Shown here one piece after another: positions 6,684 through 24,261 of a DNA stretch of 24,261 nt. The stretch is from IMG/VR virus record IMGVR_UViG_3300010885_029968, positions 1 through 24,261 of that record, one strand, 5' to 3'. A program made the position numbers and the translations under genes. Position 1 is the stretch's first letter, and every line of letters starts with the position of its first letter. Under the pieces are notes generated by a model that was not told the origin of the DNA, did not search any database, and saw only the letters and a list, made by a program, of their open reading frames with translations. The DNA comes from a virus.

Positions 6684-6698
6684 GATTTTTGATCGATA

Positions 6699-6712
6699 GC
6701 GCTCATTAGCGC
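6699..6712 (+). other. Short stem-loop after scaffold gene
   Basis: GCGCT, loop CATT, AGCGC form a perfect five-base-pair stem just after the scaffold stop. No T-run follows. It may stabilise the 3' end or be incidental. The real terminator lies about 15 bases downstream. Confidence 0.35.
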
Positions 6713-6726
6713 GGTGTTGTTTGGAG

Positions 6727-6757
6727 AAAAACCCTGAAATTGTTCGGGGTTTTTTTT
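6727..6757 (+). terminator. Rho-independent terminator between scaffold and capsid
   Basis: An 11-base-pair stem (AAAACCCTGAA with TTCGGGGTTTT, one G-T pair), a four-base loop ATTG, and a run of eight T. It would reduce read-through from the early morphogenesis genes into the capsid gene. I see no convincing promoter between it and the capsid gene, so it may work as an attenuator within a long transcript. Confidence 0.85.
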
Positions 6758-6785
6758 ATTTCTGGTGTACGCATAGGAGATCACC

Positions 6786-7895: not shown

Positions 7896-8279
7896 ATGGT
7901 ACATGATGGCTTGCTGTCGCTTCAGGACAGCGTAACGAAGACGGCGTCGTTTAACTCGACGGCGATTTCCACACCGACCACAACCTCGCTTCTGAGTGAG
8001 GATATCTTCGCGGAAATCTTCTATTCGGCGGCTTCCAATGCTTCCGGGTCGAACACGGTGACGTTCAGCATCGAACACTCAGACGATAACTCGACGTTCT
8101 ACGCGCACACCAGCGGGGCGGCGGACGCGATTTCTCTGTCTACCACGGCGAAGGTCGGGCGATTGTTCCTTCCGTGTTCAAGCAATAAACCGTACATCCG
8201 TTTGGTTTGTACGATTGCTGGGGCGGGGTCTACTCCAACGATTACGTACAATGCGTTCCTCGGAGTCAATCGACCGTAA
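7896..8279 (+). CDS. Capsid cement / head decoration protein (Bbp16-like)
   Basis: A 127-residue, Ser/Thr-rich, beta-rich protein following the capsid gene. The strand pattern VTFSIEHSDDNSTFYAHTSG, then GRLFLPCSSNKPYIRLVCTI, then TPTITYNAFLGV resembles the small beta-sandwich cement proteins of the Bbp16 type. In those, a DNSTF-type turn is followed by an RLxY strand and a final GxV strand. Such proteins bind the outer shell and stabilise it. Position right after the capsid gene and before a terminator fits high, matched expression. The ATG has no ribosome site at normal spacing. A hairpin upstream may compensate. Another minor structural role remains possible. Confidence 0.6.
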   Translation: MVHDGLLSLQDSVTKTASFNSTAISTPTTTSLLSEDIFAEIFYSAASNASGSNTVTFSIEHSDDNSTFYAHTSGAADAISLSTTAKVGRLFLPCSSNKPYIRLVCTIAGAGSTPTITYNAFLGVNRP

Positions 8280-8290
8280 AAATAAATAGA

Positions 8291-8326
8291 AATAATCCTC
8301 CATGATGGCATGGGGGATTATTTTTT
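8291..8326 (+). terminator. Strong rho-independent terminator after cement gene
   Basis: A 14-base-pair stem (left AATAATCCTCCATG, right CATGGGGGATTATT, one G-T pair), a four-base loop ATGG and a T-run ending at 8326. It closes the capsid plus cement unit. Confidence 0.9.
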
Positions 8327-8340
8327 ATTGAGGCTACACC

Positions 8341-9030
8341 ATGACGATGCAAGAGATTCGGGCGGAATGTCGGCAGTTACTGTTCGAGACGGGCGATGCG
8401 CCTGGGGCGACGGCGCCGCTTCTGTGGCAGCGGATTATTACGCGGTCGGTGGACAAGCTGGCAAAAGATCATTATCTGTTGTTCGGTCTGCTATCGGCGA
8501 ATCTGGTGGCGGGTCAGTCTCGGTACTGCATTCCGAATGTGTTCCGTGAGACGGGAATTTATATCAAGTACCCTTCGGCGACCAGCGACAAGACGCCGGT
8601 GGAAGATTTACAGCGGCGACAGATGCACAAGCGGAATCCGGGCTGGGAGAACTGGGCTTCGGGTACGCCCCTTTACGCGGTGTGCGATGCGGCGGGCGGG
8701 CCGTTCGATCTCTCTCCGGCGCCGGCGGTGGCGGTGACTAACGGGTTGTTCGTCGAGGGATACTATGCTCCGGGTCAGGTCTGGGAGCGAGACGCGAATG
8801 GCGCGGCGCTCACGCTGACGGATTCGAGCGTGTGTCCTCTGCCGGATTTTGCGTTGTCTGCGCTGATTTATGAGGCGTCGTATATCCGATGCATACAGTT
8901 TCCCACGAAGGAAAACGGCGCCCGCGTTGCGATGTTGCAAGCGGAGCGGATGCGGGAGATCGGGGAACTGGAAGTGAAGGCGGCGCGGTTCTTCCCGCGA
9001 AACCGGGGAGGGAACTATGGCACGAACTAA
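8341..9030 (+). CDS. Head-tail adaptor-like protein 1
   Basis: A 229-residue protein. The N-terminal third is helical (IRAECRQLLFET, WQRIITRSVDKLAKDHYLLF), and the middle is beta-rich, with WASGTPLYAVCDAAGGPFDL and then a SPAPAV turn and FVEGYYAPG strand. A C-terminal helical part follows. Adaptor proteins of short-tailed phages (SU10-adaptor-like families) show this helix, then GTP.Y, then L.PAP, then strand order and sit under the portal. I infer the role from that pattern and from the position after capsid genes. The gene begins 14 bases after a strong terminator without a clear ribosome site. Its last 14 bases overlap the next, similar gene. Confidence 0.6.
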   Translation: MTMQEIRAECRQLLFETGDAPGATAPLLWQRIITRSVDKLAKDHYLLFGLLSANLVAGQSRYCIPNVFRETGIYIKYPSATSDKTPVEDLQRRQMHKRNPGWENWASGTPLYAVCDAAGGPFDLSPAPAVAVTNGLFVEGYYAPGQVWERDANGAALTLTDSSVCPLPDFALSALIYEASYIRCIQFPTKENGARVAMLQAERMREIGELEVKAARFFPRNRGGNYGTN

Positions 9031-9748
9031 GGTGCAGCTGGAGAACAATACCCTGCTGCTGTTGGATGAGGCATCGAATACGACGATAGCCGATTTAGCG
9101 ACGGGGTCGGGCGGCTCGGCGACGATTGCGACGCTGGCGGTGATCGATAGATATATCGACGAGGGCGCGGCAAGGTTGTGTCGATCCTGCTACCTTTTGC
9201 CGGGAACCGGGACGGCTTCGTATGCGACGGGTCAGCGGGTGATCGGTCTGCACGATTTGACGGGCCAGATGGAGCGCTCGGCTTCGGCGGACGGGTCGCT
9301 GGTGTGGGCGTGTCTTTCGGTGGTGTTGGGTACGAACTACCTGGAGCGGACCGATATGGCGGCGCTGACGCTGATGCCGGGCTGGGAGACGACGGCGAAC
9401 GGTACGCCGCTGGTGTGGGCGGATATGGGGCAATCGATTCGGTTGTGGCCGGCGCCGTCGGCGGGAGCTACGTTGACGGTTCAGGGGTTTGTGACGCCGC
9501 CGTCTATCTCGTCGGTGACGTTTACCTGGATGCCGGATGATTTAGCGGAAGCGGTGGAATTGTACGCGGCATTGCAGGTGGCGATGAAGGTTTCGAGCGA
9601 TGAGACGATGAGGGACAAGATTCCTGTGCTGATGCAACGTTTTGACGGAAGGTGTGCGAATCTGTGGCAGAAGATGACGGGGGCGCTGCGGGATCGTTTC
9701 TGTCCAGTGGCGCCCACGTTTTTGTCGGTGGCGGCGCAGGCTGGTTAA
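9017..9748 (+). CDS. Head-tail adaptor-like protein 2
   Basis: A 243-residue protein with the same signature as its upstream neighbour: GWETTANGTPLVWADMG, then SIRLWPAPSAGATLTVQGFV, then a C-terminal helical region (DLAEAVELYAALQVAMKVSS). The ATG overlaps the upstream gene by 14 bases and has GGAGGGAACT directly before it, a strong site. It is likely a second connector component or a diverged copy of the first. Its stop TAA (9746-9748) shares TTAA with the stop of the convergent minus-strand gene. Codon use is GC-rich up to the stop, then the sequence turns AT-rich. Confidence 0.6.
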   Translation: MARTKVQLENNTLLLLDEASNTTIADLATGSGGSATIATLAVIDRYIDEGAARLCRSCYLLPGTGTASYATGQRVIGLHDLTGQMERSASADGSLVWACLSVVLGTNYLERTDMAALTLMPGWETTANGTPLVWADMGQSIRLWPAPSAGATLTVQGFVTPPSISSVTFTWMPDDLAEAVELYAALQVAMKVSSDETMRDKIPVLMQRFDGRCANLWQKMTGALRDRFCPVAPTFLSVAAQAG

Positions 9749-9906
9749 ACGTCTCCGGGTTGATATTTTTCCAGATCGGCGTTGCAATCGTGGATGGTTT
9801 GACGCAGGGACTGTATCAGTTTTTCCTGTCTTTTGTTTTCGTAGCACAATAAACTGATGATGACCAGGTATATGATCAGCGCTGTCTGTAATACTCGGAT
9901 TTTCAT
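9745..9906 (-). CDS. Small type II membrane protein, minus strand (53 aa)
   Basis: Reading the minus strand from ATG at 9906 gives 53 residues: a short basic start MKIRVLQTA, one hydrophobic helix (about residues 8-21, LIIYLVIISLLC), then a charged coiled-coil-like tail (ENKRQEKLIQSLRQTIHD) and the end EKYQPGDV. It fills the gap between two + strand genes almost exactly. Its stop overlaps the stop of the converging adaptor gene. Codons (ATA, TTA, AAA, CAG) are AT-richer than the neighbours, suggesting a separate origin (a moron-type gene). The basic start, single helix and coiled tail recall inner-membrane spanin subunits in miniature, or a superinfection-exclusion protein. The role is unproven. 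TAAAAT 7 bases upstream of the ATG is a possible -10, with no clear -35. Confidence 0.55.
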   Translation of the reverse strand: MKIRVLQTALIIYLVIISLLCYENKRQEKLIQSLRQTIHDCNADLEKYQPGDV

Positions 9907-9937
9907 GCGCTGATTTTACCTGATTCGAGGGGGTTTT

Positions 9938-10489
9938 ATGGCGGTTTTGTATCGGTATAGCTTCGCTGTTGCGAATTGGGCCGCCATGACGACGACGGCT
10001 AAGTTTTCGGACATTTCTCCGGTTGATCCAGACGGGCGGACAACCTACGAATCGGGCGATAGTGGGCCGAATTACTCGCGGTTATTCGGGGCGATGTATT
10101 TCGGGTCGGTGGAGACTGTCGCGCAGATCAAGGCGGAACTGTACGCGTCTGTCCCAGGCGCGGCTCCTCTCCCCCAGCGGTCGTATACGATTTACACGTC
10201 GAATGATGGCGTAACGTGGGCTTCTGCGGTGACGGGATCGCTGACGGATGGGTGGTCCTCGTTTGTTTACAATGGATCGCTGACGGCGGCTTATATCGGT
10301 ATTTACGTTTACTCGACGAATGCGGCGCAGATTCCGACCAGTACGCGGATGGGTACGCTGATCGTGACTGATCCTCCCCTATCATTTCCGCCGGCGGATG
10401 GGTGGACGTTAAAGGACGGTTGCAATGGTACGTCGTTCGGGTTTTCGGCGATTCCGGTGACGGCATGGACGCAGAAGGAGAACTGTTAA
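9938..10489 (+). CDS. Beta-rich virion protein of unknown function
   Basis: A 183-residue protein, rich in Ser, Thr, Tyr and Gly, with strand-like segments (YTIYTSNDGVTWASAVTG, AAYIGIYVYSTNAAQIP, MGTLIVTDPP). The SNDGVTW turn is typical of small beta-sandwich domains found in fibres and cell-binding proteins. It starts at ATG 9938 with GAGGGGG a few bases upstream. Its TAA abuts the ATG of the nozzle gene, so the two are in one unit. A tail accessory or decoration role is likely by position. I do not recognise a family. Confidence 0.6.
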   Translation: MAVLYRYSFAVANWAAMTTTAKFSDISPVDPDGRTTYESGDSGPNYSRLFGAMYFGSVETVAQIKAELYASVPGAAPLPQRSYTIYTSNDGVTWASAVTGSLTDGWSSFVYNGSLTAAYIGIYVYSTNAAQIPTSTRMGTLIVTDPPLSFPPADGWTLKDGCNGTSFGFSAIPVTAWTQKENC

Positions 10490-13468
10490 ATGGAATTCAT
10501 CGATTCTGCGTTTATCGGTCTGGATGCAACGTCTGCGCCGGAAAGCCTCCCTGCGGGTGTTTTGACTCAGGCAGATAATGTGTTCGTGGATGGGGGTGCG
10601 TTACGTTCGCGTCCGGGGAAACGGGCGCAACTATCGGCGGCGCTGGGAAAAACGATCGGGATGATACTCCCTTTCCGCAGGGCGGATGGTAGCGCTCATG
10701 CGTTGTTTGTGGCTGGGACGGGCGCCAGTGGATTGGTTTATCGGTGGGCTAAGGGGGCGACGACGGCGTCGGTGGTGACCAATTCCGGGTCGGTGACGTT
10801 CGATGCGACCACGGCGCAACTGACGCGGCTCGGCGATTACATTTTCATTACCGGTGCGAATTCGGGTAATGCCGGGAAGCTGTACCGCTACAACATTCTG
10901 ACAGATGCTGTGGAGGCGGACGCTTCGGCGGGGTTGGGGGCGTTCACTCGTTCGGTGACGGCTTCGACGGGTTTCGGCTTGCTGGCGGCGATTGGGGTCG
11001 GGACATGGTCGGCGGATTACTGCGCGACTCCGACCATGACGCTTCCTGACTACGAGTTCGCCGCGTCGAGTTCAGGCAATCCTCCCTCGTCCACGTATTG
11101 GGATTACAATGCGACCGCGGTGGAGGTGGAATCTGGAAACATTATCGATCCTGTGAATTTCAATCTTCTGTACGCACGGCTCGATGTGACGCAGGATTTC
11201 ATCCAGACAAAAGCGGCGATACTGACGCCAACGAAGGCGAACAGCGGGGGGATCGGCTCGGCGACGCGGTATGCGATGCATTATTCTCTGGCGTTCCGCT
11301 GGCGGGCCACGACGACGAACGACTCGCTGAAGATGACGATTATCGGGTACAGCGATACGGGTGGAACGACGGAGCTGGCGCGTCTGTCCCAGACGATCAA
11401 GGCGACGCAGACGACCAGTGCAGAGAATAAAACGCTGTATTTCTCGTTCGTGGGCGCCTGTCTGGATACCCAGTTAAAATCCGTCCGGGTACGGGTGGAT
11501 TGTATGCACGACAATCCTGGGACGAACGGGCCGTATGTGACGCGGCTGACCATCGGGGCGAACGAGAATACCGGCGCTTCGACCGGATTGATACGGTTTA
11601 CCCAGACGAATGCACAGCAAACGGTGACGATGTATGGCGCGGATGGCGTCAACGGGCTGATTTCGATCAGCGGGGAAAACCGGCTGACGGTGGGCGTTTC
11701 GTCGCTAAACCTTTCGACGGTTTCGCGGATATCGATACCGGTCACGCGGGTCGGCAGTATCAAGGATTTCGGGGTCAAGCTGGGGCTGAGAACGGGGCTG
11801 ACGACGGCGGCCGCCAATTCGGACCAGATGACATTCTCGACGGCGAACGGGCAGGAATACCTCACGGTTGACTTAACGACGATTGATGCATCGAGCAGGA
11901 CGGGTATCAACTATCTGGATTTTTACTTCGTGACGGATGTATCCAGCAGCACAGATGCGCTGGACGGATCGAAGGGAATTATCCTGGGCGATTTGTTGTT
12001 TTCTGGCAATCTGACAATCGGACAGGGTTATACCTACCGGGTGCGGGAGATCAAGTCTGCGGGAACGCTGTCAGAGGTTGCGGGGTCGGCTTCGGGGTTC
12101 TCGGCGACGATTACGCCAACAACGACTCAGGCGCGGGGTGTGGTGGTGATCGGTGGGTCTGGGACATTGCCGGACAACAGCGGCGCCTTGCTGGAGGTTT
12201 ATCGACGAGGCGGGCTGGTGGGTACGGATGATACGTACTATCGCCGCGTTTTACCGCCGTTCGATCCATCGACGAACCAGAGTTACTGGAACGCGACCAC
12301 GCGCACGTTTACAGACGATATTCCTGATGCGTCGTTGTTTCTGGCTCCTCTGCTGGATGATCACGATGCGACTCCGTTTTCCTCGACGGTTCCGGCGCGG
12401 GCGGCTGCGGCGTTTCGGGGGCAGGTGGTGATCGGGACCGATACGGGGATTTACGTCTCGCGGCTGGAGACCGGGGCGCGGGTGGGGCTGTACTGGTCGC
12501 TGGCGCCGGACCGGGCGTCGGCGTATGTCGAATTGCTGGGCTGGACGGGGAAGGTGCGCGGCACGGACGGATCGGCGCGCGCCGGTGGCGATTCGGTTCA
12601 GGCGCTGATCCCGTTTCAGTCTCGTCTGTGGGTTATGTTCCAAAGTTCGATTTACTTGTTGTCCGGGTCTGACTGCCGGGATTTTGTGTTGCGGCGGTGG
12701 GAGAACGACGGCGGGCGCGGGGCAATCGCTCCCAGGGCTTGCGGGGTGAATGCGGGGCGATTGTGGTATCTGGCGACGGACGGTCTGCGGGCGACGGATG
12801 GGGCGTCTGTTGATATCGTGTCGATGCCGGTGCAGAAACTGCTGGCTCCTGCGGCGTCGTTCGGACAGGGGTTGAATGCGTCGGCGTTCGCTACGTGTGC
12901 GCTGTGGTTTAGCTCGAATCGCGTTTTCATTTCGGCGCCGCTACCGGCTCAATCGAGTATCGGGGCGACGTATGTGATGGAAGATACGGGGTCGATGGGG
13001 GCGCGGTGGTACCGGTGGCTTCTGGGTACGGTGACGGCGGGGGCGGTGTTCGGCGGCGCGGGTGACTCGGAAGATATTGTCATCGGGGATAGCGGCGGGC
13101 AGATTTACCAATTGGGGCCGTCTACGGGCGATACGACAACGTCGGGCGGCTCGGTGGCGGCGGTGACGGTAACGGTGGCGTCTCGTCGGTTTCAGGCGGC
13201 GGATGCGCTTCTGCGGGCGGAACGTATCGGGTTTTCTGCCGCGTGTGCGGATAATTCATGGTCTGCCACGATTGGTGTCAATAATCAATCGTCTCTGGCG
13301 TGGTCGCTGGCGTATTCTTTGACGGCGGGGGAAAACACTCCGGGCTTGATTCCTGTCGGTCAGCAGATCAAGGGGAACGGGCTGTACTGGACGTTCTCGG
13401 CGGCGACGACTAATCCGCTAACGTTGCGCGAGGTGGTTTTCCGTGCGGTGGAAAGGGCAAAACTATAA
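10490..13468 (+). CDS. Large tail nozzle-like protein
   Basis: A 992-residue protein. The N terminus, LPAGVLTQADNVFVDGGALR, and the late segments LIPFQSRLWVMFQSSIYLLS (about residues 706-726) and GRLWYLATDGLRATDG (about 753-768) match the pattern of podoviral nozzle or tail-tubular-B-type proteins. In these, a beta-propeller-like body alternates strand motifs of the form LWV.F..SIYLL and a later LWYL..DG. A Thr/Ser-rich beta region (about residues 185-530) looks like inserted domains, perhaps carbohydrate-binding. The protein should sit at the tail tip below the adaptors. AAGGAGAA precedes the ATG at good spacing. TAA overlaps the next ATG. Family call is by pattern memory, so moderate. Confidence 0.65.
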   Translation: MEFIDSAFIGLDATSAPESLPAGVLTQADNVFVDGGALRSRPGKRAQLSAALGKTIGMILPFRRADGSAHALFVAGTGASGLVYRWAKGATTASVVTNSGSVTFDATTAQLTRLGDYIFITGANSGNAGKLYRYNILTDAVEADASAGLGAFTRSVTASTGFGLLAAIGVGTWSADYCATPTMTLPDYEFAASSSGNPPSSTYWDYNATAVEVESGNIIDPVNFNLLYARLDVTQDFIQTKAAILTPTKANSGGIGSATRYAMHYSLAFRWRATTTNDSLKMTIIGYSDTGGTTELARLSQTIKATQTTSAENKTLYFSFVGACLDTQLKSVRVRVDCMHDNPGTNGPYVTRLTIGANENTGASTGLIRFTQTNAQQTVTMYGADGVNGLISISGENRLTVGVSSLNLSTVSRISIPVTRVGSIKDFGVKLGLRTGLTTAAANSDQMTFSTANGQEYLTVDLTTIDASSRTGINYLDFYFVTDVSSSTDALDGSKGIILGDLLFSGNLTIGQGYTYRVREIKSAGTLSEVAGSASGFSATITPTTTQARGVVVIGGSGTLPDNSGALLEVYRRGGLVGTDDTYYRRVLPPFDPSTNQSYWNATTRTFTDDIPDASLFLAPLLDDHDATPFSSTVPARAAAAFRGQVVIGTDTGIYVSRLETGARVGLYWSLAPDRASAYVELLGWTGKVRGTDGSARAGGDSVQALIPFQSRLWVMFQSSIYLLSGSDCRDFVLRRWENDGGRGAIAPRACGVNAGRLWYLATDGLRATDGASVDIVSMPVQKLLAPAASFGQGLNASAFATCALWFSSNRVFISAPLPAQSSIGATYVMEDTGSMGARWYRWLLGTVTAGAVFGGAGDSEDIVIGDSGGQIYQLGPSTGDTTTSGGSVAAVTVTVASRRFQAADALLRAERIGFSAACADNSWSATIGVNNQSSLAWSLAYSLTAGENTPGLIPVGQQIKGNGLYWTFSAATTNPLTLREVVFRAVERAKL

Positions 13469-15938: not shown

Positions 15939-15963
15939 ATAGATAGATAGATAGGTAGATAGA
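15936..15963 (+). repeat. Tetranucleotide TAGA repeat
   Basis: About seven units of TAGA, with one TAGG variant, starting at the stop codon of the ejection-type gene and ending two bases before the terminator stem. It lies outside the coding frames, so length change would alter only spacing. Confidence 0.85.
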
Positions 15964-15964
15964 A

Positions 15965-15988
15965 AGACGCTTGAGGGCGTCTTTTTTT
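15965..15988 (+). terminator. Short terminator before the giant gene
   Basis: GACGC, loop TTGAGG, GCGTC, then seven T. The five-base-pair stem, extended by flanking A-T pairs, is compact but well formed. The TTG in its loop is an in-frame but implausible upstream start for the giant gene. Confidence 0.75.
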
Positions 15989-16003
15989 ATTTGGAGTTAT
16001 CCT

Positions 16004-19000
16004 ATGCCAGATGTAGATATCACACTGAAAAACGGGCGCAAAGTTCGTGTGGCGTTCGACAAGGCGCCGTCCGAGGAAACCATTGCGAAGGTGGCTCGGA
16101 TTGCGGAAGCGCGGGGTGCGGGGTCTGCGCCTTCGCGCAAAGATAATTCCAATTTGCCGGGTGGTACGCTGACTCTGGATAATTTGACGGCGCCGTCGTC
16201 TGAGACTCCTCTGGGTAATATGGCGCCGCCGATGGTCTCGGGCGCGGCGCCGCCGATGATGCCGACGATGGCGCTTCTTTCGGGCAATCCTGCGGAGATG
16301 CAGGGGGCGGGGTCTGCGGCTCCGGCTCCTCGCGCTATAACGCCACGCTTTGTCAGTCCGGTTCCGAAGTTCCGGATGCCGGTACGCGATACGAGCATGG
16401 ATGCATTCACGGCGGCGACGGGGCTGTCTCCTGAGATGCTGAATCAGATCGCCTACACTCCGGGCATGGAGGGGCTGTACGGTGGCACGACGGCTCCTGA
16501 TTTCAGCAATGAGCAGAAGGCGGCGGCGGGCGCGAATGCGGGGATGTCGGCGTTGCCCACGGCGGCGATGATGGCGACGACGATGGCGGCGAATCGGTTG
16601 GCGCAGACGGCGACGAATCCCTATATCAAGGGCCTCGGAATCCTGACAGGACTCGGTCTGGGCATGGGGGCGGCGGCGGGTGTGGATGTGGCGCAGAACG
16701 CGGCGCTACAGGGAGTACTGGGGGATACGGCGTACAAGGGGCTGGAAAGCAAGCTACAGGGCTACGAAACGAACTACCCCGTCGAATCGGCTATCGGGCG
16801 TAACCTTCCGTTTGCGGTGGTTGGTAAACCGGGCTTTTCTTTCACGCGGCAAGGACTACTACAGGCGGGAATGGGCGCGGCATCGAACGCGGGGATCGAT
16901 GTCGCTTCGCAGGTGGTGAGGAATGTGGGGGGTGGTCGTCCGGCGTTCGGACTGGATTATAACCGTCTGGGTGAGGCGGCCGGGGTTGGTGCGCTGTTTA
17001 GCGGCGGTCATACGGCTGTCGGGCAGGCGATGGAGAATGGTATCAATCGTGCGCTGACGCCATTTACGAATCGCATGGCGACGGCGCTGAACCAGAGGGC
17101 GGCGAATCGGTTCCGGGCGGCGGCGGGTGCGGATATCAGCGCGGCTGAGATGCTACCGGGGGTGGATGCGAACACGGCGCTGACGGATTATGCCGGGTAC
17201 AAACCGGGCGATACGCGCTATGACGGCGCGGGGAAACCGGTGCAGGTGGTCGAGGTGTTGCCCGACGGTCGTCTGCGGGTGCGGTCTGGAAACGGGAACA
17301 TGACTCCGGTGGTGACGCCGGATGTGTTCGAGGCTCAGACTAAGGCGGGGCGGCCGGATGCGGGACCGGATGCGCCGTACTCAAGGATCGGAATCAACAA
17401 CTGGCAGGCGTTGCGCGATTCGATGATATCGGAGTTTGGCTATACGCGAGACAAGGCGAACGCGGTGGCGGCCGAGTACGAATCGATAGCGCGGAGCTGG
17501 GCGCAGCGCAATGGGAAACCTGTCGAAGATTGGTATAAGCAACACGTTGCCGGAATCACGAACGGCGGCGAAATTATGGCGCAGGTGCAACTGGATGAGG
17601 CGAATCAGCAGTCTCTGCTGAAGGGCGGCAATCCGCTGACGGCTCAGGCGACGGACTTGAAAGGGTCGGCGACGGCGGTTCCTACGGCGGATTCTCCGGC
17701 GCGTCATGTTATTTCTGCGCTGGTGGCGCCGGATGTTTCGACGGCATTGCATGAGCTGGGGCATATCTTCAGGAAACAGGTCGGGGCGGAGAATCCCAAC
17801 GATATCGCCATGCTCCGGAAATGGGCGGGGGTTCGGCCGGGCGACGAATGGAATGTAGACCACGAAGAAAAGTTCGCGGTTTCGTTTGAGCATTGGCTCA
17901 AGACCGGTGAGGCGCCGAATGGTTCGCTTCGTCGGGTGTTCGGGAAGTTCCGGGATTGGCTGGGGTCGATTTACACACGTTTCGTGGGCGGTAAGGCGGT
18001 GGATACGCTGGGGGCGACGCCATTCAATCCTGAGGTGGTGGATATGCTGAAGCGCTACCACGCGGATATCTCGGACATGACGGGAGAAACTGCGGCGGCG
18101 GCTCCAGCGGCTCCGTCCGTCTCTCCGGGGCGGGTTCGGGGGAATAATGCCGCGCAGACTCAGGCGCAGACTCAGGCGGCTCCGTCTACGGTTCTTCGTC
18201 CGGTGATGCAGGATGGAAAACTTGTCGGTAATGAGGCGGGGCAGACGGCGAATATCGGGTCTGGGTTGATCGTCGATATTGCGAATGAGGGCGGGACGGC
18301 GAGGAAGTACCGGATTTCTACGTCCGGTCTGATCGAGGGTCGGACGGACGGGGCGCGAACGGCGACGGGCGTCGAGATTCGGGCGGGTGGCGGACCGCGG
18401 GCGCGATTGTCGGGATATGTGGTGGAGACGCCACAGGGTCTGCACTTCGTGGAATCTCTGGGTGATGGCGCGGCGGCGCAACCATCGGGTCAGACGATTC
18501 TTCCGGGGGCGACGACGACGACGGAGGCTCTGGCTCCTCTGGTACGGACTCCAGTGAATGCGGAGAATATCAAGAGCGGGTCGGCGGCCGAGGTTTCTTT
18601 GCCGGGGTCAAACGAAAAAATCGGGGTGCGGTATGCAATCGTTGAACTGGGCGATTTGATCCCCTCTCATACCGATACATTCGCTCCTAATCCGTTGTAC
18701 GATGCCGAGATGCAACCACGCGACCGGACGCGCATGGCAAGTTCCGACCAGGTCAACGATATCGTCGGAAAATTCAATCCGGCGCTGTTGATGGATTCCC
18801 CCTCGACGGCGGAAGGGGCGCCGATTGTCGGTCCCGATTTGCAGGTGGAATCGGGTAACGGGCGAACGCTGGCAATACGAAAGGTTTACGCAGAAGGCGG
18901 CGCCAGAGCGGACGCATACCGGACGGCGGCCACGGAGAAGGCGGCGGCGCTGGGAGTTAATCCAGACGATATCGCTGGCATGAAGAATCCGGTGCTGGTG

Positions 19001-22000
19001 CGGGTGCGGGAGACGGAAACGACGGACCGGGCGGGGCTGGCGGAACGGATGGGTAAATCCCCTATCGCGGCGCTGTCTCCTATCGAACAGGCGGCGGCGG
19101 ATGCGCGGGTGATCCAGGGTAATGGCTTGCTGTCGCGGTTCGTCCCTACTGAATCCGGCCGCATTTACTCTCCGGCGAATCTGCCGTTTATCCGGGAGTT
19201 CATGGGCAAGATTCCGGCGAACGAGCGCACGACGCTGATGCGGGCGGATGGGACGCTGTCGGATGCGGGAGAGGCGCGTCTGCGGGCGGCGATATTGTCT
19301 GCGGCATACGATGATCCGGCGTTCATCGAGCGCATGACGGATTCCGATCAATTGCGGAATCTGCGTAAGGCGATCATCGAGACGGCGCCGAAGTTGGCGC
19401 TGATCCGCGAGGGTATCAGCAAGGGTCGGCTGCACGATGTGGATATCTCGTCGGATATCTCGGCGGCGGTAGACCGTGCGCTGGCGTTGTCGAAGCAGGA
19501 GGGTTCGCTTCGGGACAATATCGCGCAGGATTTGGCGCAGCAGTCGCTGGATGGCGGCCTGTCGGATGAGGCGCGGGCTATTCTGGCTATTCTGGGCGAT
19601 GCAAATCGGGGCGGGGCGCGTCTGCGGGAACTGGTGGCGGCGTATTCGGACATGGTGGCGAGGGCGGGGAATCCGGCGCAGGAATCGATGGGCGGGAAGT
19701 CGTCGCCGCCGGACAAGATGGAATTGGTGCGGAAGGCGATATCGTCCGCGATGGGCGAAGAGGAACCGGCGCAGACCGGACCGGATTTGTTCGGGGATAT
19801 GGCGGCTCCAGCGGCTCCAGCGGCGAAAGAAGCTCCAGCGGCTTCTGCGTCTCCAGCGGCTCCTGTGGCTCCAGCGGCGAAGGAGGCGCCCACGACGGCG
19901 GCTCTGGCAATGGAGATGGTACAGCGGCATGGGGTGAAACCTACCGAGCAGAATCTGGCGCTGGCGGAAAACGCGGTGAAGATGGCGCAACAGCGGGGTA
20001 AGGACGGGTTGGACCAGGTCGATCAGTACGTGCTGACCAGTTATGATGCGGCGTCTGGGAATGCGACGATCACTTCGCCCAGAGCGGATAAGCAGGGAAA
20101 CTTTGCGTCTTATGAGGTCAACGTTCGGACGGGCGCGTCGTCTGATCCTGACTCGCTGTACCGGTTGAACGGGAGTACAGAGCAGGGGCAGAAATTTGAC
20201 GGAATCAATGTGTCGCTGGCGAAGGCGGGAATCAACGAGACGGTCGCCAGTAAGCATACGATGATAGCGCGAGAGCTGGCGCGTCGTGCGGGTTACGCTG
20301 TACCGGAAATGGGCAATGATGTCCTGAAGGCGGACACGCTATTTCAGAATCAGCAAGCAAGGCAGGAATCTTACTATAAAGAGGCTATGCGTCTGGATCA
20401 GATCGGCTATACGGACTCTTATGGGTATAAGCGAGGTCCGACTTGGACAAAAACTGACGTTTTGGACATGATTGACGCTAAGACGGGGAAACTTCGTCCG
20501 TTTACAGCACTGATCGGAGACAGAACTAAGATTGGTTATTATGAACCGATTGGCGGGAAAAATTCTCCGCTTTACAATAAGGTTCTCCTGTACGGCGGTC
20601 CCGGCTATGGCATGAAGCGAAATTGGACAGATCCCAATGACAACACTCTGTCAAGGGCAATATGGGCTGTGAACGCGGGACGAGCGACCAGAATCCACAA
20701 TTCAATGGCCGGACATAATGAGGTAAACGCACTGATTGTGGTAGGGTCACCAGAACAGGCGACCAGCAATCAAGAGTTTTACCGTGTATACGGTATGGAG
20801 CTGGATATTGCGCTCAAGTATGGATTGAATGGCGTAAGACCAAAAATATTAGAGGTTAACAAAGCAGTAAAAAAGATAGCCGAGGGGTTAGGTATAACTA
20901 AAATTGATACTTGGGATGATTACGTCAAATCTGCGCCATCTCTGTCATTTGAAGACAGATCCGCATTTATAAAGGCTCTGGGAGCGCCTACATTATCCAA
21001 AACGCTAAATATCCCATCCATACATCAAGTCTTAGATGGTTTTATTGATCATCATGACGCTAAAGTCGGAGACATTGTAGCTGCTGGAGTTTTGCGAAAA
21101 TTCGGACTTCCGCCAACTGAAACCAGAAAACAGACCTACGTTCCCATTCCGAATCTGAACGTTCATGTTTCCTATCCTTATGCTCTGCCAGGAGTATTAA
21201 CAGGGAGCGTCAATAAAGGGGTTTCAGCGCACGATGTTTTTTCCAGATGGCTGATCAATGCTGTAGCCAAGGCGAATCAGAGATCAGTGGAAATGATACA
21301 TCCGACGACGGGGCCATTGACTCCTGCGGAAGAGCAAAGGATAATACAATCGTTATTCCAGGGAGGTGAAAATTATGACGGACGAAGAAATGGATCAACT
21401 GGTAAAGACGGCTTTTCAGGAAGCGAAGGAGTTCGACCAGAGAATGAACCAGGACAAGAAACTGGTGGAGGATTTCTACGGACCGGGATCCTACCCGCAG
21501 TGGCAGGAAGATATCAAGGCAATGAAGTTACCGCCAAGCGAGGACGGCAAATTGCCGGAGGGCGCGATCAAGGCGCAGGGGCTGGGGGGTTAGATACCAG
21601 CAATCTATTCCAGACGGTTCAAGGCGCTCCGAATGGGGCGCCTTCTCGTTTTAAACGAGCGACGGATTTGACGGTGGATGTGGTGACGCGTGCGCCCAGA
21701 GCGTTGCAGGGGTCGGCGGATATCTCGGCTCCGGGGCGTCAGGGAATCATTCTGACAATTGCTCATCCGGGGCTGGCGACGAAGGCGTTCAAGGAACAGA
21801 TTCGGAACTTCAGGGATGTGAACTACGACCAGTGGGCGATGGATATGGACCAACGTCCAAACGCGCATCTGTACGACGAGTATTTGAAACTTTCGTACAA
21901 TCAGGAGCATGGCGAAGAAACGTTCTCGTCCAAGCTGGTCGAGCGCTTACCCTGGGTCAAGGGTTCTGAACAGGCGTATATTACCTATCTCGACCAGATT

Positions 22001-22840
22001 CGGGCGGATGTGTTCGACAAGTGGGCGGTGGCGCTGGGCGTTCCAGAAGGCGGGATGCCGGACGAGAAACAAGCGAAGTCTCTGAAGAATGCGGGGCGTT
22101 TTATTATGGACGCTTCCGGTAAAGGCGAGCTTCCAGCGGCAATTGAGGGCAGCAAGAAATTGTTGACGCTGGCGTTCTATTCCCCCAGTTTCGCGGCGTC
22201 CAGAATAGCTCTTCTGAATCCAATGCGGTATGCGAAGCTGTGGGCGGAGGATCCTGCGGCGGCGAAGCTGGTGACGGCGGCGATGGGCAAATTTGTCGGG
22301 GCGACGGCGGGAACGCTGGCGCTGGCTCAGGCGGCCGGTTTTCAGGTGGACACAGACTCCGAATCGCCCGACTTCCTGAAAATCAAAACGGCGGACGGGA
22401 AGTTCCGCTACGATATCTCTGGCGGCCTGTCTCCTTACCTGCGGCTGGCGTTTCGATTGGTGCGGGCGACGTATGATCGGGCGCAGGGCAATCTGCCGGA
22501 ACGGGGCAAGGATGCGCTGTCTATCCTGGGGAGTTTCGTCAAGGGGAAACTGTCTCCGGGGGCGTCTTTGCCGGTGGAGTTCTACACGGGCAAAACGGGC
22601 GGGGGGAAAGATTTTGATGTGACAAATGCGGTACTCTCGCGGGCGCTGCCGCTACCTTTCTCCGGGATGTACGAGGCTCTGTCGGGTGAGGGGCTGATGG
22701 GCGGGTTGCAACAGTTACCGGATGTCGTAGGAATTGGAACCAGTTATCGGCCGGACGGTGGCGGAGGGAGGTCTGGCAAGGGTGGCGGGTTGCCATCGCT
22801 CCCGAAACTGCCGGAGCTGCCACAATTACCGAAGTTATAG
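16004..22840 (+). CDS. Giant polyvalent protein: zincin, DdrB-like ParB and polyvalent domains
   Basis: A 2278-residue protein starting at ATG 16004, with GGAG seven bases upstream. In order: a small N-terminal domain (DVDITLKNGRKVRVAF), a Pro/Ala-rich linker, a hydrophobic glycine-rich stretch near residues 178-235, and a zinc-protease motif HELGH (583-587) with acidic HEEKFAVSFE from 620 as probable third-ligand region. Next is a DdrB-like ParB domain (about 870-1200; DLIPSHTDTF, APIVGPD, SGNGRTLA from 950), then Ala/Pro linkers (near 1266-1300) and an AT-rich-encoded segment (about 1443-1790) resembling large polyvalent-protein domains. An odd Gly-rich linker (1787-1865) comes from an overlapped frame, and a C-terminal module from about 1880 opens with SADISAPGRQG. 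Such proteins are thought to be injected with phage DNA and counter host defences. Virion packing is inferred from position. Confidence 0.8.
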   Translation: MPDVDITLKNGRKVRVAFDKAPSEETIAKVARIAEARGAGSAPSRKDNSNLPGGTLTLDNLTAPSSETPLGNMAPPMVSGAAPPMMPTMALLSGNPAEMQGAGSAAPAPRAITPRFVSPVPKFRMPVRDTSMDAFTAATGLSPEMLNQIAYTPGMEGLYGGTTAPDFSNEQKAAAGANAGMSALPTAAMMATTMAANRLAQTATNPYIKGLGILTGLGLGMGAAAGVDVAQNAALQGVLGDTAYKGLESKLQGYETNYPVESAIGRNLPFAVVGKPGFSFTRQGLLQAGMGAASNAGIDVASQVVRNVGGGRPAFGLDYNRLGEAAGVGALFSGGHTAVGQAMENGINRALTPFTNRMATALNQRAANRFRAAAGADISAAEMLPGVDANTALTDYAGYKPGDTRYDGAGKPVQVVEVLPDGRLRVRSGNGNMTPVVTPDVFEAQTKAGRPDAGPDAPYSRIGINNWQALRDSMISEFGYTRDKANAVAAEYESIARSWAQRNGKPVEDWYKQHVAGITNGGEIMAQVQLDEANQQSLLKGGNPLTAQATDLKGSATAVPTADSPARHVISALVAPDVSTALHELGHIFRKQVGAENPNDIAMLRKWAGVRPGDEWNVDHEEKFAVSFEHWLKTGEAPNGSLRRVFGKFRDWLGSIYTRFVGGKAVDTLGATPFNPEVVDMLKRYHADISDMTGETAAAAPAAPSVSPGRVRGNNAAQTQAQTQAAPSTVLRPVMQDGKLVGNEAGQTANIGSGLIVDIANEGGTARKYRISTSGLIEGRTDGARTATGVEIRAGGGPRARLSGYVVETPQGLHFVESLGDGAAAQPSGQTILPGATTTTEALAPLVRTPVNAENIKSGSAAEVSLPGSNEKIGVRYAIVELGDLIPSHTDTFAPNPLYDAEMQPRDRTRMASSDQVNDIVGKFNPALLMDSPSTAEGAPIVGPDLQVESGNGRTLAIRKVYAEGGARADAYRTAATEKAAALGVNPDDIAGMKNPVLVRVRETETTDRAGLAERMGKSPIAALSPIEQAAADARVIQGNGLLSRFVPTESGRIYSPANLPFIREFMGKIPANERTTLMRADGTLSDAGEARLRAAILSAAYDDPAFIERMTDSDQLRNLRKAIIETAPKLALIREGISKGRLHDVDISSDISAAVDRALALSKQEGSLRDNIAQDLAQQSLDGGLSDEARAILAILGDANRGGARLRELVAAYSDMVARAGNPAQESMGGKSSPPDKMELVRKAISSAMGEEEPAQTGPDLFGDMAAPAAPAAKEAPAASASPAAPVAPAAKEAPTTAALAMEMVQRHGVKPTEQNLALAENAVKMAQQRGKDGLDQVDQYVLTSYDAASGNATITSPRADKQGNFASYEVNVRTGASSDPDSLYRLNGSTEQGQKFDGINVSLAKAGINETVASKHTMIARELARRAGYAVPEMGNDVLKADTLFQNQQARQESYYKEAMRLDQIGYTDSYGYKRGPTWTKTDVLDMIDAKTGKLRPFTALIGDRTKIGYYEPIGGKNSPLYNKVLLYGGPGYGMKRNWTDPNDNTLSRAIWAVNAGRATRIHNSMAGHNEVNALIVVGSPEQATSNQEFYRVYGMELDIALKYGLNGVRPKILEVNKAVKKIAEGLGITKIDTWDDYVKSAPSLSFEDRSAFIKALGAPTLSKTLNIPSIHQVLDGFIDHHDAKVGDIVAAGVLRKFGLPPTETRKQTYVPIPNLNVHVSYPYALPGVLTGSVNKGVSAHDVFSRWLINAVAKANQRSVEMIHPTTGPLTPAEEQRIIQSLFQGGENYDGRRNGSTGKDGFSGSEGVRPENEPGQETGGGFLRTGILPAVAGRYQGNEVTAKRGRQIAGGRDQGAGAGGLDTSNLFQTVQGAPNGAPSRFKRATDLTVDVVTRAPRALQGSADISAPGRQGIILTIAHPGLATKAFKEQIRNFRDVNYDQWAMDMDQRPNAHLYDEYLKLSYNQEHGEETFSSKLVERLPWVKGSEQAYITYLDQIRADVFDKWAVALGVPEGGMPDEKQAKSLKNAGRFIMDASGKGELPAAIEGSKKLLTLAFYSPSFAASRIALLNPMRYAKLWAEDPAAAKLVTAAMGKFVGATAGTLALAQAAGFQVDTDSESPDFLKIKTADGKFRYDISGGLSPYLRLAFRLVRATYDRAQGNLPERGKDALSILGSFVKGKLSPGASLPVEFYTGKTGGGKDFDVTNAVLSRALPLPFSGMYEALSGEGLMGGLQQLPDVVGIGTSYRPDGGGGRSGKGGGLPSLPKLPELPQLPKL
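21361..21369 (+). promoter_or_regulatory. Strong internal ribosome binding site
   Basis: GGGAGGTGA, close to the ideal anti-SD complement, lies five bases before ATG 21375 and inside the giant gene. It supports independent translation of the overlapping 72-residue ORF. Confidence 0.65.
21375..21593 (+). CDS. Overlapping 72-aa acidic protein inside the giant gene
   Basis: Reading +1 relative to the giant ORF gives 72 residues: MTDEEMDQLVKTAFQEAKEF, then a charged helix with NQDKKLVEDFYG, then YPQWQEDIKAMKLPPSEDGK and the end KAQGLGG. It has a compact, natural-looking composition. Third codon positions in this frame are mostly G or C, as in the rest of the phage, whereas the giant frame here uses many A- or T-ending codons and yields a Gly/Arg-rich, featureless linker. 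GGGAGGTGA precedes its ATG by five bases. The function is unknown. It may act with the giant protein or be the remnant of a gene once standing between two separate genes. Confidence 0.65.
   Translation: MTDEEMDQLVKTAFQEAKEFDQRMNQDKKLVEDFYGPGSYPQWQEDIKAMKLPPSEDGKLPEGAIKAQGLGG
21621..21654 (+). terminator. Terminator-like hairpin inside the giant gene
   Basis: AAGGCGCTCC pairs with GGGGCGCCTT over ten base pairs (one G-T) with loop GAAT, followed by CTCGTTTT. It lies 28 bases after the stop of the overlapping 72-aa ORF. A second inverted repeat, CTCGTTTTAAACGAG, follows directly (21645-21659). The T-run is short and interrupted, and the same bases encode a GAPNGAP linker, so it may be incidental. 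Confidence 0.35.
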
Positions 22841-22841
22841 C

Positions 22842-22859
22842 TCGCACACACTTGTGCGA
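22842..22859 (+). other. Short perfect stem-loop after the giant gene
   Basis: TCGCACA, loop CACT, TGTGCGA: a seven-base-pair perfect inverted repeat between the stop codon and the terminator. It may protect the 3' end or bind a protein. Confidence 0.45.
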
Positions 22860-22862
22860 AGG

Positions 22863-22894
22863 AAGACCGCTACAATCGTAGCGGTCTTTTTTTT
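22863..22894 (+). terminator. Strong rho-independent terminator after giant gene
   Basis: AAGACCGCTAC and GTAGCGGTCTT form a perfect 11-base-pair stem with loop AATC and then an unbroken T-run. It separates the virion block from the small lysis-like block. Confidence 0.93.
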
Positions 22895-22914
22895 CGAGAG
22901 AAAGGGATGTCACG

Positions 22915-23154
22915 ATGGAATGGCAGGCGGTGGCGGCGAGTTCTGAGGCGGTGATTGCGTTTCTGGCGGTGGGCGGGGTGATCGGTGGCGGTATTCGTTT
23001 TTGTTACGTACTTTTTTCGAAGATCGACAGGATGACGGCGACGCTGGATGTATTGTCGAAGGCGCTGATCGGGACGGCGGACACGGTGCGCGATATCGAA
23101 AAGCGGGTGATTGTGCTGGAGCGGCATTACGCCATCAAGGAGACTAAGTCATGA
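22915..23154 (+). CDS. Small membrane protein, holin-like or lysis-associated
   Basis: A 79-residue protein with an N-terminal hydrophobic helix (AVIAFLAVGGVIGGGIRFCYV, about residues 12-33) and a C-terminal coiled coil (KIDRMTATLDVLSKAL, then TVRDIEKRVIVLERHY). One membrane helix with a cytoplasmic or periplasmic coiled tail recalls small phage lysis-accessory proteins (haemolysin XhlA-like layout, though here the helix is N-terminal). AAGGGA lies upstream. The TGA overlaps the start of the next membrane gene (ATGA), so they are coupled. It begins 20 bases after a strong terminator. No endolysin is visible in the window. Confidence 0.6.
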   Translation: MEWQAVAASSEAVIAFLAVGGVIGGGIRFCYVLFSKIDRMTATLDVLSKALIGTADTVRDIEKRVIVLERHYAIKETKS

Positions 23155-23354
23155 AGCCTGTGGAGATGGACGGATGGACGTATCGCCTACTGGCGGTATT
23201 GATTTTCGTGGTGTGTGTGGGGCTGATCGGGTGCTATATCACGCTGGAATTGATGGGGCGCACGGTTCCCCAGGCGATGGAGATCGGGATATGGGCGACA
23301 GCATCGTCGCTGGTGACATTGTTTTTACAGAAAAAGAAAGAGGATGAATCATGA
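23151..23354 (+). CDS. Putative holin (two membrane helices)
   Basis: A 67-residue protein with a short polar head, a strong helix (LLAVLIFVVCVGLIGCYITL, residues 13-32), a short loop, a second weaker helix (AMEIGIWATASSLVTLFL, about 42-59) and a charged tail QKKKEDES. Two helices plus a charged C terminus in under 70 residues is a common holin layout, which forms holes in the inner membrane for lysis. Start overlaps the previous stop, with AAGGAG upstream. Its stop overlaps the next start. The call rests on topology and neighbours, not on a family match. Confidence 0.55.
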   Translation: MKPVEMDGWTYRLLAVLIFVVCVGLIGCYITLELMGRTVPQAMEIGIWATASSLVTLFLQKKKEDES

Positions 23355-23554
23355 GCTGGTTATCGCAGGTTTTGAAGCGGGCGGTTGGTGCGCCAGAAAT
23401 CGATTTGATCAAGCTGGCGGAATCGAATCCTCTGGCGGCGGCGCTGATCAAGCCTCTGGAATGGGAGGCTATGAAGCGCGGGGTTGATGCGCTGGATGAT
23501 GCGACGTTTGAGGCGCTCCGGGTGGCGGTGAACAAGCGGGCGTTCAGAAAATAG
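23351..23554 (+). CDS. Small hypothetical protein after holin-like gene
   Basis: A 67-residue helical, soluble or peripheral protein: MSWLSQVLKRAVGAPEIDLI, then NPLAAALIKPLEWEAMKRGV, ending VAVNKRAFRK. No continuous membrane segment is seen, and the amphipathic N terminus could lie on a membrane. It overlaps the holin-like stop (ATGA) with GAGGA upstream, so it is the third gene of a coupled set. Family and role are not recognised. Confidence 0.6.
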   Translation: MSWLSQVLKRAVGAPEIDLIKLAESNPLAAALIKPLEWEAMKRGVDALDDATFEALRVAVNKRAFRK

Positions 23555-23565
23555 TTTTGAGAGAA

Positions 23566-23583
23566 TCTTACGCGAGCGTAAGA
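23566..23583 (+). promoter_or_regulatory. Stem-loop just upstream of the last ribosome site
   Basis: TCTTACG, loop CGAG, CGTAAGA form a seven-base-pair perfect stem one base before AAAGGAG of the final gene. No T-run follows. It could separate the two genes' mRNA segments or affect initiation. Confidence 0.45.
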
Positions 23584-23596
23584 AAAGGAGATTATT

Positions 23597-24261
23597 ATGG
23601 CTATGTATGTTCCTGAACAGGAAATTATCGGGCTGTCGGGGCAGATCACGACGGTTAATAACCTGCTGGATGCGGCGGGAAGCGGGGCGAATCCTCTGGA
23701 CTGCGCTCCGGGCGGGGTGAAGCTGAATACGTTATCGTTCGATATCACGACCAGCGGGGTAATTTCCGGCGGGACGATCACGCCGGAAATTTCGGCGGAC
23801 GGGGTTAACTGGAAGCCTGTGTTTGTGACGCAGATTAACGCTGCGGCTCAGGTGGTCTCAACGATATCCGTGTCTACGGCGGGGTCGTATCTGGTATCGA
23901 CAAGTTTTCGGTATTTCCGGTTGCGATTGTCGGCGGCGGTGACGGGCGGCGGCTCGGTGGCGGCGCGAGGATGGCTGTCTGCTGAATCAAATATGCCGGC
24001 TGTATTGCCGGTCGTTTTGAATAATGAGAATCCTATTGGCGCGACCAGTGACGCGGCGGCGTCGTCTGATACTGGCACGTTTTCCCTATTGGCGTTTTTT
24101 AAAAGGCTTCTGAATACCTATCTGTCGCCGCTACTGACGCGCTACCCTGCCGATATTGCCATTACCGGGTTAACCGGGCAATCGGCGACGGTGAACAACC
24201 TGCTTGACGGGGCGACGGCGGGTGCGGCGGTTACGGATTGTGCGCCAAATGGGACGTTGTA
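23597..24261 (+). CDS. Fibre-like beta-rich protein, 3' end outside window
   Basis: An open frame from ATG 23597, with AAAGGAG seven bases upstream, runs to the right edge without a stop (221 codons seen). It is rich in Gly, Ala, Thr and Ser. A near-copy of the N-terminal segment (IGLSGQITTVNNLLDAAGSG, residues 11-30) recurs at residue 190 (TGLTGQSATVNNLLDGATAG), each followed by a DCAP motif, so the protein has tandem domains of about 180 residues. The middle (TITPEISADGVNWKPVFVTQ, then YFRLRLSAAVTGGG) is a beta-sandwich pattern also seen in the cement protein. Repeated beta domains suit a tail fibre or surface protein. The function is not certain. Confidence 0.7.
   Translation, partial: MAMYVPEQEIIGLSGQITTVNNLLDAAGSGANPLDCAPGGVKLNTLSFDITTSGVISGGTITPEISADGVNWKPVFVTQINAAAQVVSTISVSTAGSYLVSTSFRYFRLRLSAAVTGGGSVAARGWLSAESNMPAVLPVVLNNENPIGATSDAAASSDTGTFSLLAFFKRLLNTYLSPLLTRYPADIAITGLTGQSATVNNLLDGATAGAAVTDCAPNGTL

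Follow-up and report, generated by a model that had tools for sequence, protein, structure and literature searches.

A candidate minus-strand membrane-protein ORF at a junction in the structural block of a probably temperate phage

Short phage peptides with a single membrane helix are used in superinfection exclusion, and the ORF considered here would encode a product of 53 aa that is similarly short and has one predicted helix; no sequence match between this product and the small membrane proteins of superinfection exclusion was found. With respect to gene position, the closest described systems are the morons of temperate phages, which are of variable content and seem, on comparing relatives, to have been inserted in the late operon (PMC2629481). 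The likeness to the morons of the P22-like phages, such as the ant moron (mnt, arc, ant, sieA and others), lies in a variable late-operon location in a phage that is temperate, or here probably so. The difference is that the present locus is a single 53-codon ORF without a detected promoter, terminator or homologue, known from sequence alone, and that its position, from an adaptor-like gene to the next structural gene, is another one. A further point of comparison is offered by the two-component spanins (Rz/Rz1), whose genes differ widely in sequence (PMC6139136) and whose likeness to the product is a membrane helix with a helical tail.

The open reading frame and its predicted product

The window, which is the whole of a 24,261-base IMG/VR virus record, has a plus-strand structural block that encodes a terminase (phrog_38, E 1.1e-29), a P22-like portal (Pfam, E 2.7e-13), a major capsid protein (phrog_212, E 2.7e-24) and two SU10-adaptor-like proteins (E 1.5e-07 and 3.5e-12), with the large proteins of the block taken for tail proteins. 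The features at the junction that follows the second adaptor are these:

9017-9748, plus strand: gene of the second SU10-adaptor-like protein, the upstream neighbour (E 3.5e-12)
9745-9748, both strands: convergent stop codons with a common TTAA (read directly)
9745-9906, minus strand: 53-codon ORF, N-terminal hydrophobic helix and charged helical tail (ORF call, Kyte-Doolittle, AlphaFold2)
9927-9933, plus strand: GAGGGGG, the Shine-Dalgarno-like motif of gene 9938-10489
9938-10489, plus strand: downstream neighbour, 183 aa, with a weak F5/8C-like match under the cut-off (profile search)

The initial annotation described a lone minus-strand membrane-protein gene that exactly fills the space between the two plus-strand genes. 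Read from the sequence, the 53-codon ORF with its ATG start is indeed there, real as sequence and a candidate only as a gene, and its TAA overlaps, as described, the TAA of the facing adaptor gene (9746-9748). The exact fit has to be relaxed, as the ORF takes 158 nt of a 189-nt gap (9749-9937) and leaves 31 nt, which include the Shine-Dalgarno-like motif; that it fills the greater part of a gap with no other explanation is nonetheless a point for a gene. The membrane helix proposed at the outset also holds as a prediction, with a Kyte-Doolittle mean of 2.28 over the 19 residues from residue 3. The tail that follows is charged and helical on the evidence of both sequence and model, and AlphaFold2, run on the single sequence, gives one helix over residues 4-47 (mean pLDDT 87).

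This architecture and the wide sequence variation of spanin genes speak for the suggestion of a miniature inner-membrane spanin. Such a spanin would have a periplasmic domain that works with a lipoprotein of the outer membrane, whose gene lies close by or overlaps, and no lipobox ORF was found on either strand in 9000-10700. Compared with Rz/Rz1 the product is very short, with only about 30 residues past the helix, it matches no spanin family, and its ORF runs opposite to the lysis-like cassette of this phage and is a long way from it; in that cassette the gene at 22915-23154 already has a weak Rz-like match. The proposal therefore fails on length, partner and location, and is considered very improbable.

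A homologue search, which had been set as a check on the ORF, has since been run and returned nothing significant from the databases or the relatives. For the 53-aa sequence there is no significant match in IMG/VR, annotated phages, GTDB genomes or PDB sequences, none among plasmids (searched also at the DNA level), and none to the Pfam, PHROGs, NCBIfam and PADLOC profiles; Foldseek of the model against viral models gave no match, and tblastn against 160 fetched loci reached a best E of 0.32. The best profile, phrog_6808 of unknown function, aligns with residues 16-52 at E 0.0087, the best E for the reversed sequence being 0.17.

Is such an ORF more than chance would provide? By length it barely is, which is weak evidence when taken alone: when the gap is shuffled with its dinucleotides kept, a minus-strand ORF with an ATG start and 53 codons or more turns up in 4.7% of 5000 sequences, and in 417 of 8000 in a second set, and an ORF as long appears in 25% of shuffled gaps if three start codons and either strand are allowed. 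Hydrophobicity separates it from chance more clearly, in that none of the 417 chance ORFs contains a 19-residue stretch of 2.0 or above on the Kyte-Doolittle scale, a test picked after the ORF had been seen. The minus strand of the window has 93 ORFs of 40 aa or more, of which 3 come to 2.0 or above; the present one is the highest, and the other two are antisense to plus-strand ORFs.

Codon usage speaks the other way. In a model built from 18 plus-strand genes with leave-one-out scoring (the giant gene being taken in frame 16004), the minus-strand ORF scores 0.002 per codon against 0.188-0.477 for those genes, the third highest value among the 93 minus-strand ORFs, and on synonymous codons it scores 0.055 against 0.253-0.596, ranking 47th of 93. 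The GC content at its codon positions (0.48/0.24/0.54) has the low second position of most plus-strand genes in more extreme form, which is a point for a gene. The codon usage as scored is not phage-like and counts against a gene, although it is compatible with coding, since the codons of a gene acquired not long ago could be foreign. It also favours the main rival explanation, in which the gap is a non-coding AT-rich spacer, the minus-strand ORF is accidental, and an inverted repeat at 9865-9922 works, immediately before the ribosome site of gene 9938, as a hairpin in the RNA or as a site bound by a protein. This explanation, which leaves the hydrophobic minus-strand frame unaccounted for, is a serious possibility, if short of a probable one.

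The AT-richness noted initially is likewise of limited use. The ORF does have a lower GC content than the plus-strand genes (42% against 52-61%), but the other gaps of this phage are at 34-57% GC, so that AT-richness is not diagnostic of a foreign gene here and sits well with a spacer.

The junction in related phages

Two contigs of the same species, L002 and L004, have terminases 100% identical to that of the window, and L004 encodes a Peptidase_S24 repressor (E 3.5e-13) and a Phage_integrase protein (E 1.2e-29), both upstream of the region shared with the window. The lysogeny module of this contig occupies 3431-5948 and comprises the S24-type repressor, with a small membrane protein immediately downstream, and the phage integrase. 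As L004 encodes the repressor and the integrase, the species is probably temperate. No host was found, as the terminase alignment, scanned against GTDB, brought up no relative.

The two contigs come from a scan with the terminase, in which 155 stretches matched, 153 of them relatives, and 80 loci were kept, the other 78 being at about 48-56% identity. When an alignment of the second adaptor was used for scanning, 253 stretches matched, of which 108 were relatives, and a further 80 loci were kept, some on contigs of the terminase scan; together these are the 160 fetched loci, related or same-species. Close relatives that span the locus were not obtained from scans with the adaptor, capsid and tail-like proteins, and with the portal two fragments of the same species were obtained, both ending within the portal gene, short of the locus. 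As a separate observation, the giant protein of 2278 aa encoded at 16004-22837 has a ddrB-like ParB superfamily domain at residues 870-1002 (Pfam E 3.7e-36), no match in the 160 loci and, by sequence, almost no relatives in IMG/VR, with one 58-residue match in L163.

The second adaptor is present in 105 loci. With 9 that are too short downstream and 50 near-duplicates (12-mer rule) removed, the distinct junctions number 46. With common start codons, 37 of these have a plus-strand ORF of 50 aa or more that begins no further than 60 nt from the adaptor stop (hand count from a listing); when six start codons are allowed, and starts anywhere from -150 to +60, one follows the adaptor at 45, the exception being L142. 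These ORFs mostly encode small membrane proteins and typically stand first in a lysis-like cassette: an approximately 80-aa membrane-plus-coil protein, or one of 98 aa with hydrophobic stretches, followed by other small proteins, one of which starts MSWL. Antisense minus-strand ORFs with hydrophobic stretches are also seen at the relatives' junctions (for example 57 aa in L008 and 84 aa in L160), which weighs against a gene.

Profiles built from the junction proteins of the relatives find their counterparts in the window at its right end:

22915-23554, plus strand: small membrane/lysis-like cassette of 79, 67 and 67 aa (profiles from relatives)

Here the first and third genes, 22915-23154 and 23351-23554, are matched at E 0.0021 and 0.00014, and the middle one, 23151-23354, ranks first for its profile without being significant (E 0.35-0.58). 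Beyond the cassette, an open frame at 23582-24259 runs off the end of the record; it has a motif repeated near both ends by eye and no Pfam match. The phage thus seems to keep at the far end of its structural block the cassette that its relatives have right after the adaptor, and because of this displacement the comparison supports the junction as a site of variable content. The presence or absence of the ORF in related phages, another check set earlier, has the outcome that it is absent from all relatives examined, whose adaptors are only 22-34% identical to that of the window; an empty site was not seen among these distant relatives, in which other genes occupy the place.

The prevalence of plus-strand ORFs at the junction raises the question of whether the gap holds a plus-strand gene or its relic, namely a GTG-initiated ORF of 66 aa at 9652-9852 that would be a short or decayed form of the relatives' small membrane gene. 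Its codons at 9751-9849 score 0.206, inside the range of the genes, a value that 0-2.6% of wrong-frame stretches reach, depending on frame. However, the best E against the relative cassette profiles tried is 6.8, Pfam and PHROGs give no significant match, no clear ribosome site precedes the GTG by eye, and the ORF overlaps the adaptor gene by 97 nt. A plus-strand gene or relic is consequently held to be unlikely. Most of the hydrophobic segment of the minus-strand ORF lies past 9852, where the plus-strand ORF ends, a point for the minus-strand gene.

Signals around the start codon

Two further features surround the start of the minus-strand ORF:

9913-9918, minus strand: TAAAAT, a -10-like hexamer 6 nt before the ATG, without a good -35 (by eye; absent from the promoter scan output)
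9865-9922, no strand assigned: imperfect inverted repeat with arms at about 9865-9882 and 9907-9922 and a 24-nt loop (folding)

The ATG of the ORF is preceded, at 11 nt, by a weak ribosome site, AGGT. A promoter and terminator of its own, as morons usually have, were not found by consensus scans: a sigma-70-like search of 9500-10500 gave no promoter, and the minus strand from 9745 to 8313 gave no terminator. From its position as read by eye, the TAAAAT could possibly serve a leaderless minus-strand transcript.

The inverted repeat brackets the minus-strand start codon and has a T-run on neither side. With GC content allowed for, its fold has a residual of -13.8 kcal/mol, which 1 of 1211 60-mers of the window equals or exceeds, and a 60-mer as strong is present in 8 of 300 shuffled gaps. 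A hairpin among the strongest in the window is in keeping with the spacer explanation, as is the occurrence of hairpins in other gaps of this phage. Against that explanation, the gap folded whole as plus-strand RNA is not unusually structured (z -0.86), whereas as minus-strand RNA it is (z -3.14). Moreover, four other intergenic gaps (6684-6785, 8280-8340, 15939-16003 and 22841-22914) have plus-strand hairpins with T-runs, two from the terminator scan (6724-6757 and 15961-15986) and two from folding (in the gaps 8280-8340 and 22841-22914), and the studied gap differs from these because its hairpin has no T-run. An intrinsic terminator in 9749-9937 was rejected for that reason.

Two other candidates were also rejected: a known RNA in the region, the best being sR32 at 9606-9634, under its gathering score, and repeated operator sites, the longer arm motifs being unique to this spot among the window, L002 and L004. 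The T-run hairpins themselves, at 6724-6757, 8276-8335, 15961-15986 and 22833-22892, are intrinsic terminator-like features on the plus strand within the structural block, and one of them sits just before the capsid gene.

A proposed moron-like gene and its possible role

The reading favoured, tentatively and at a little under even probability, is that ORF 9745-9906 is a small moron-like gene for a membrane protein, orphan in sequence and placed at a junction of variable content. The moron proposal of the initial annotation is in part sustained, by the signs of a temperate phage (a common rather than strict attribute of moron carriers, seen here through the repressor and integrase of L004), by the variable locus and by the absence of the ORF from relatives; it is weakened by the want of a promoter, a minus-strand terminator, phage-like codons and a homologue. 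Morons are dispensable for particle assembly and lysis and benefit the prophage or the host. The gene would lie on the strand opposite the late operon and be expressed independently of it, probably from the prophage. Its product would be a single-pass inner-membrane peptide, with an anchor at residues of about 3-21 and a short amphipathic helical tail, that may act at the membrane, for instance in the exclusion of superinfecting phage or the modulation of an envelope protein. Transcription, translation, membrane insertion and function are all inferred in this proposal.

A more elaborate version treats the junction as a swap site, from which the cassette moved to the far end and where a new minus-strand membrane micro-gene replaced it, with its start codon inside the inverted repeat, which could serve a leaderless transcript of the prophage as an operator or as a lock on translation. 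This version is thought rather improbable.

As it stands, the ORF counts as one among many unproven small phage ORFs. If real, it would add to the orphan membrane micro-genes located at variable sites and be a candidate for exclusion or effects on the envelope, in a group of temperate phages that was met here only as contigs from metagenomes; its placement would illustrate how late operons exchange small modules.
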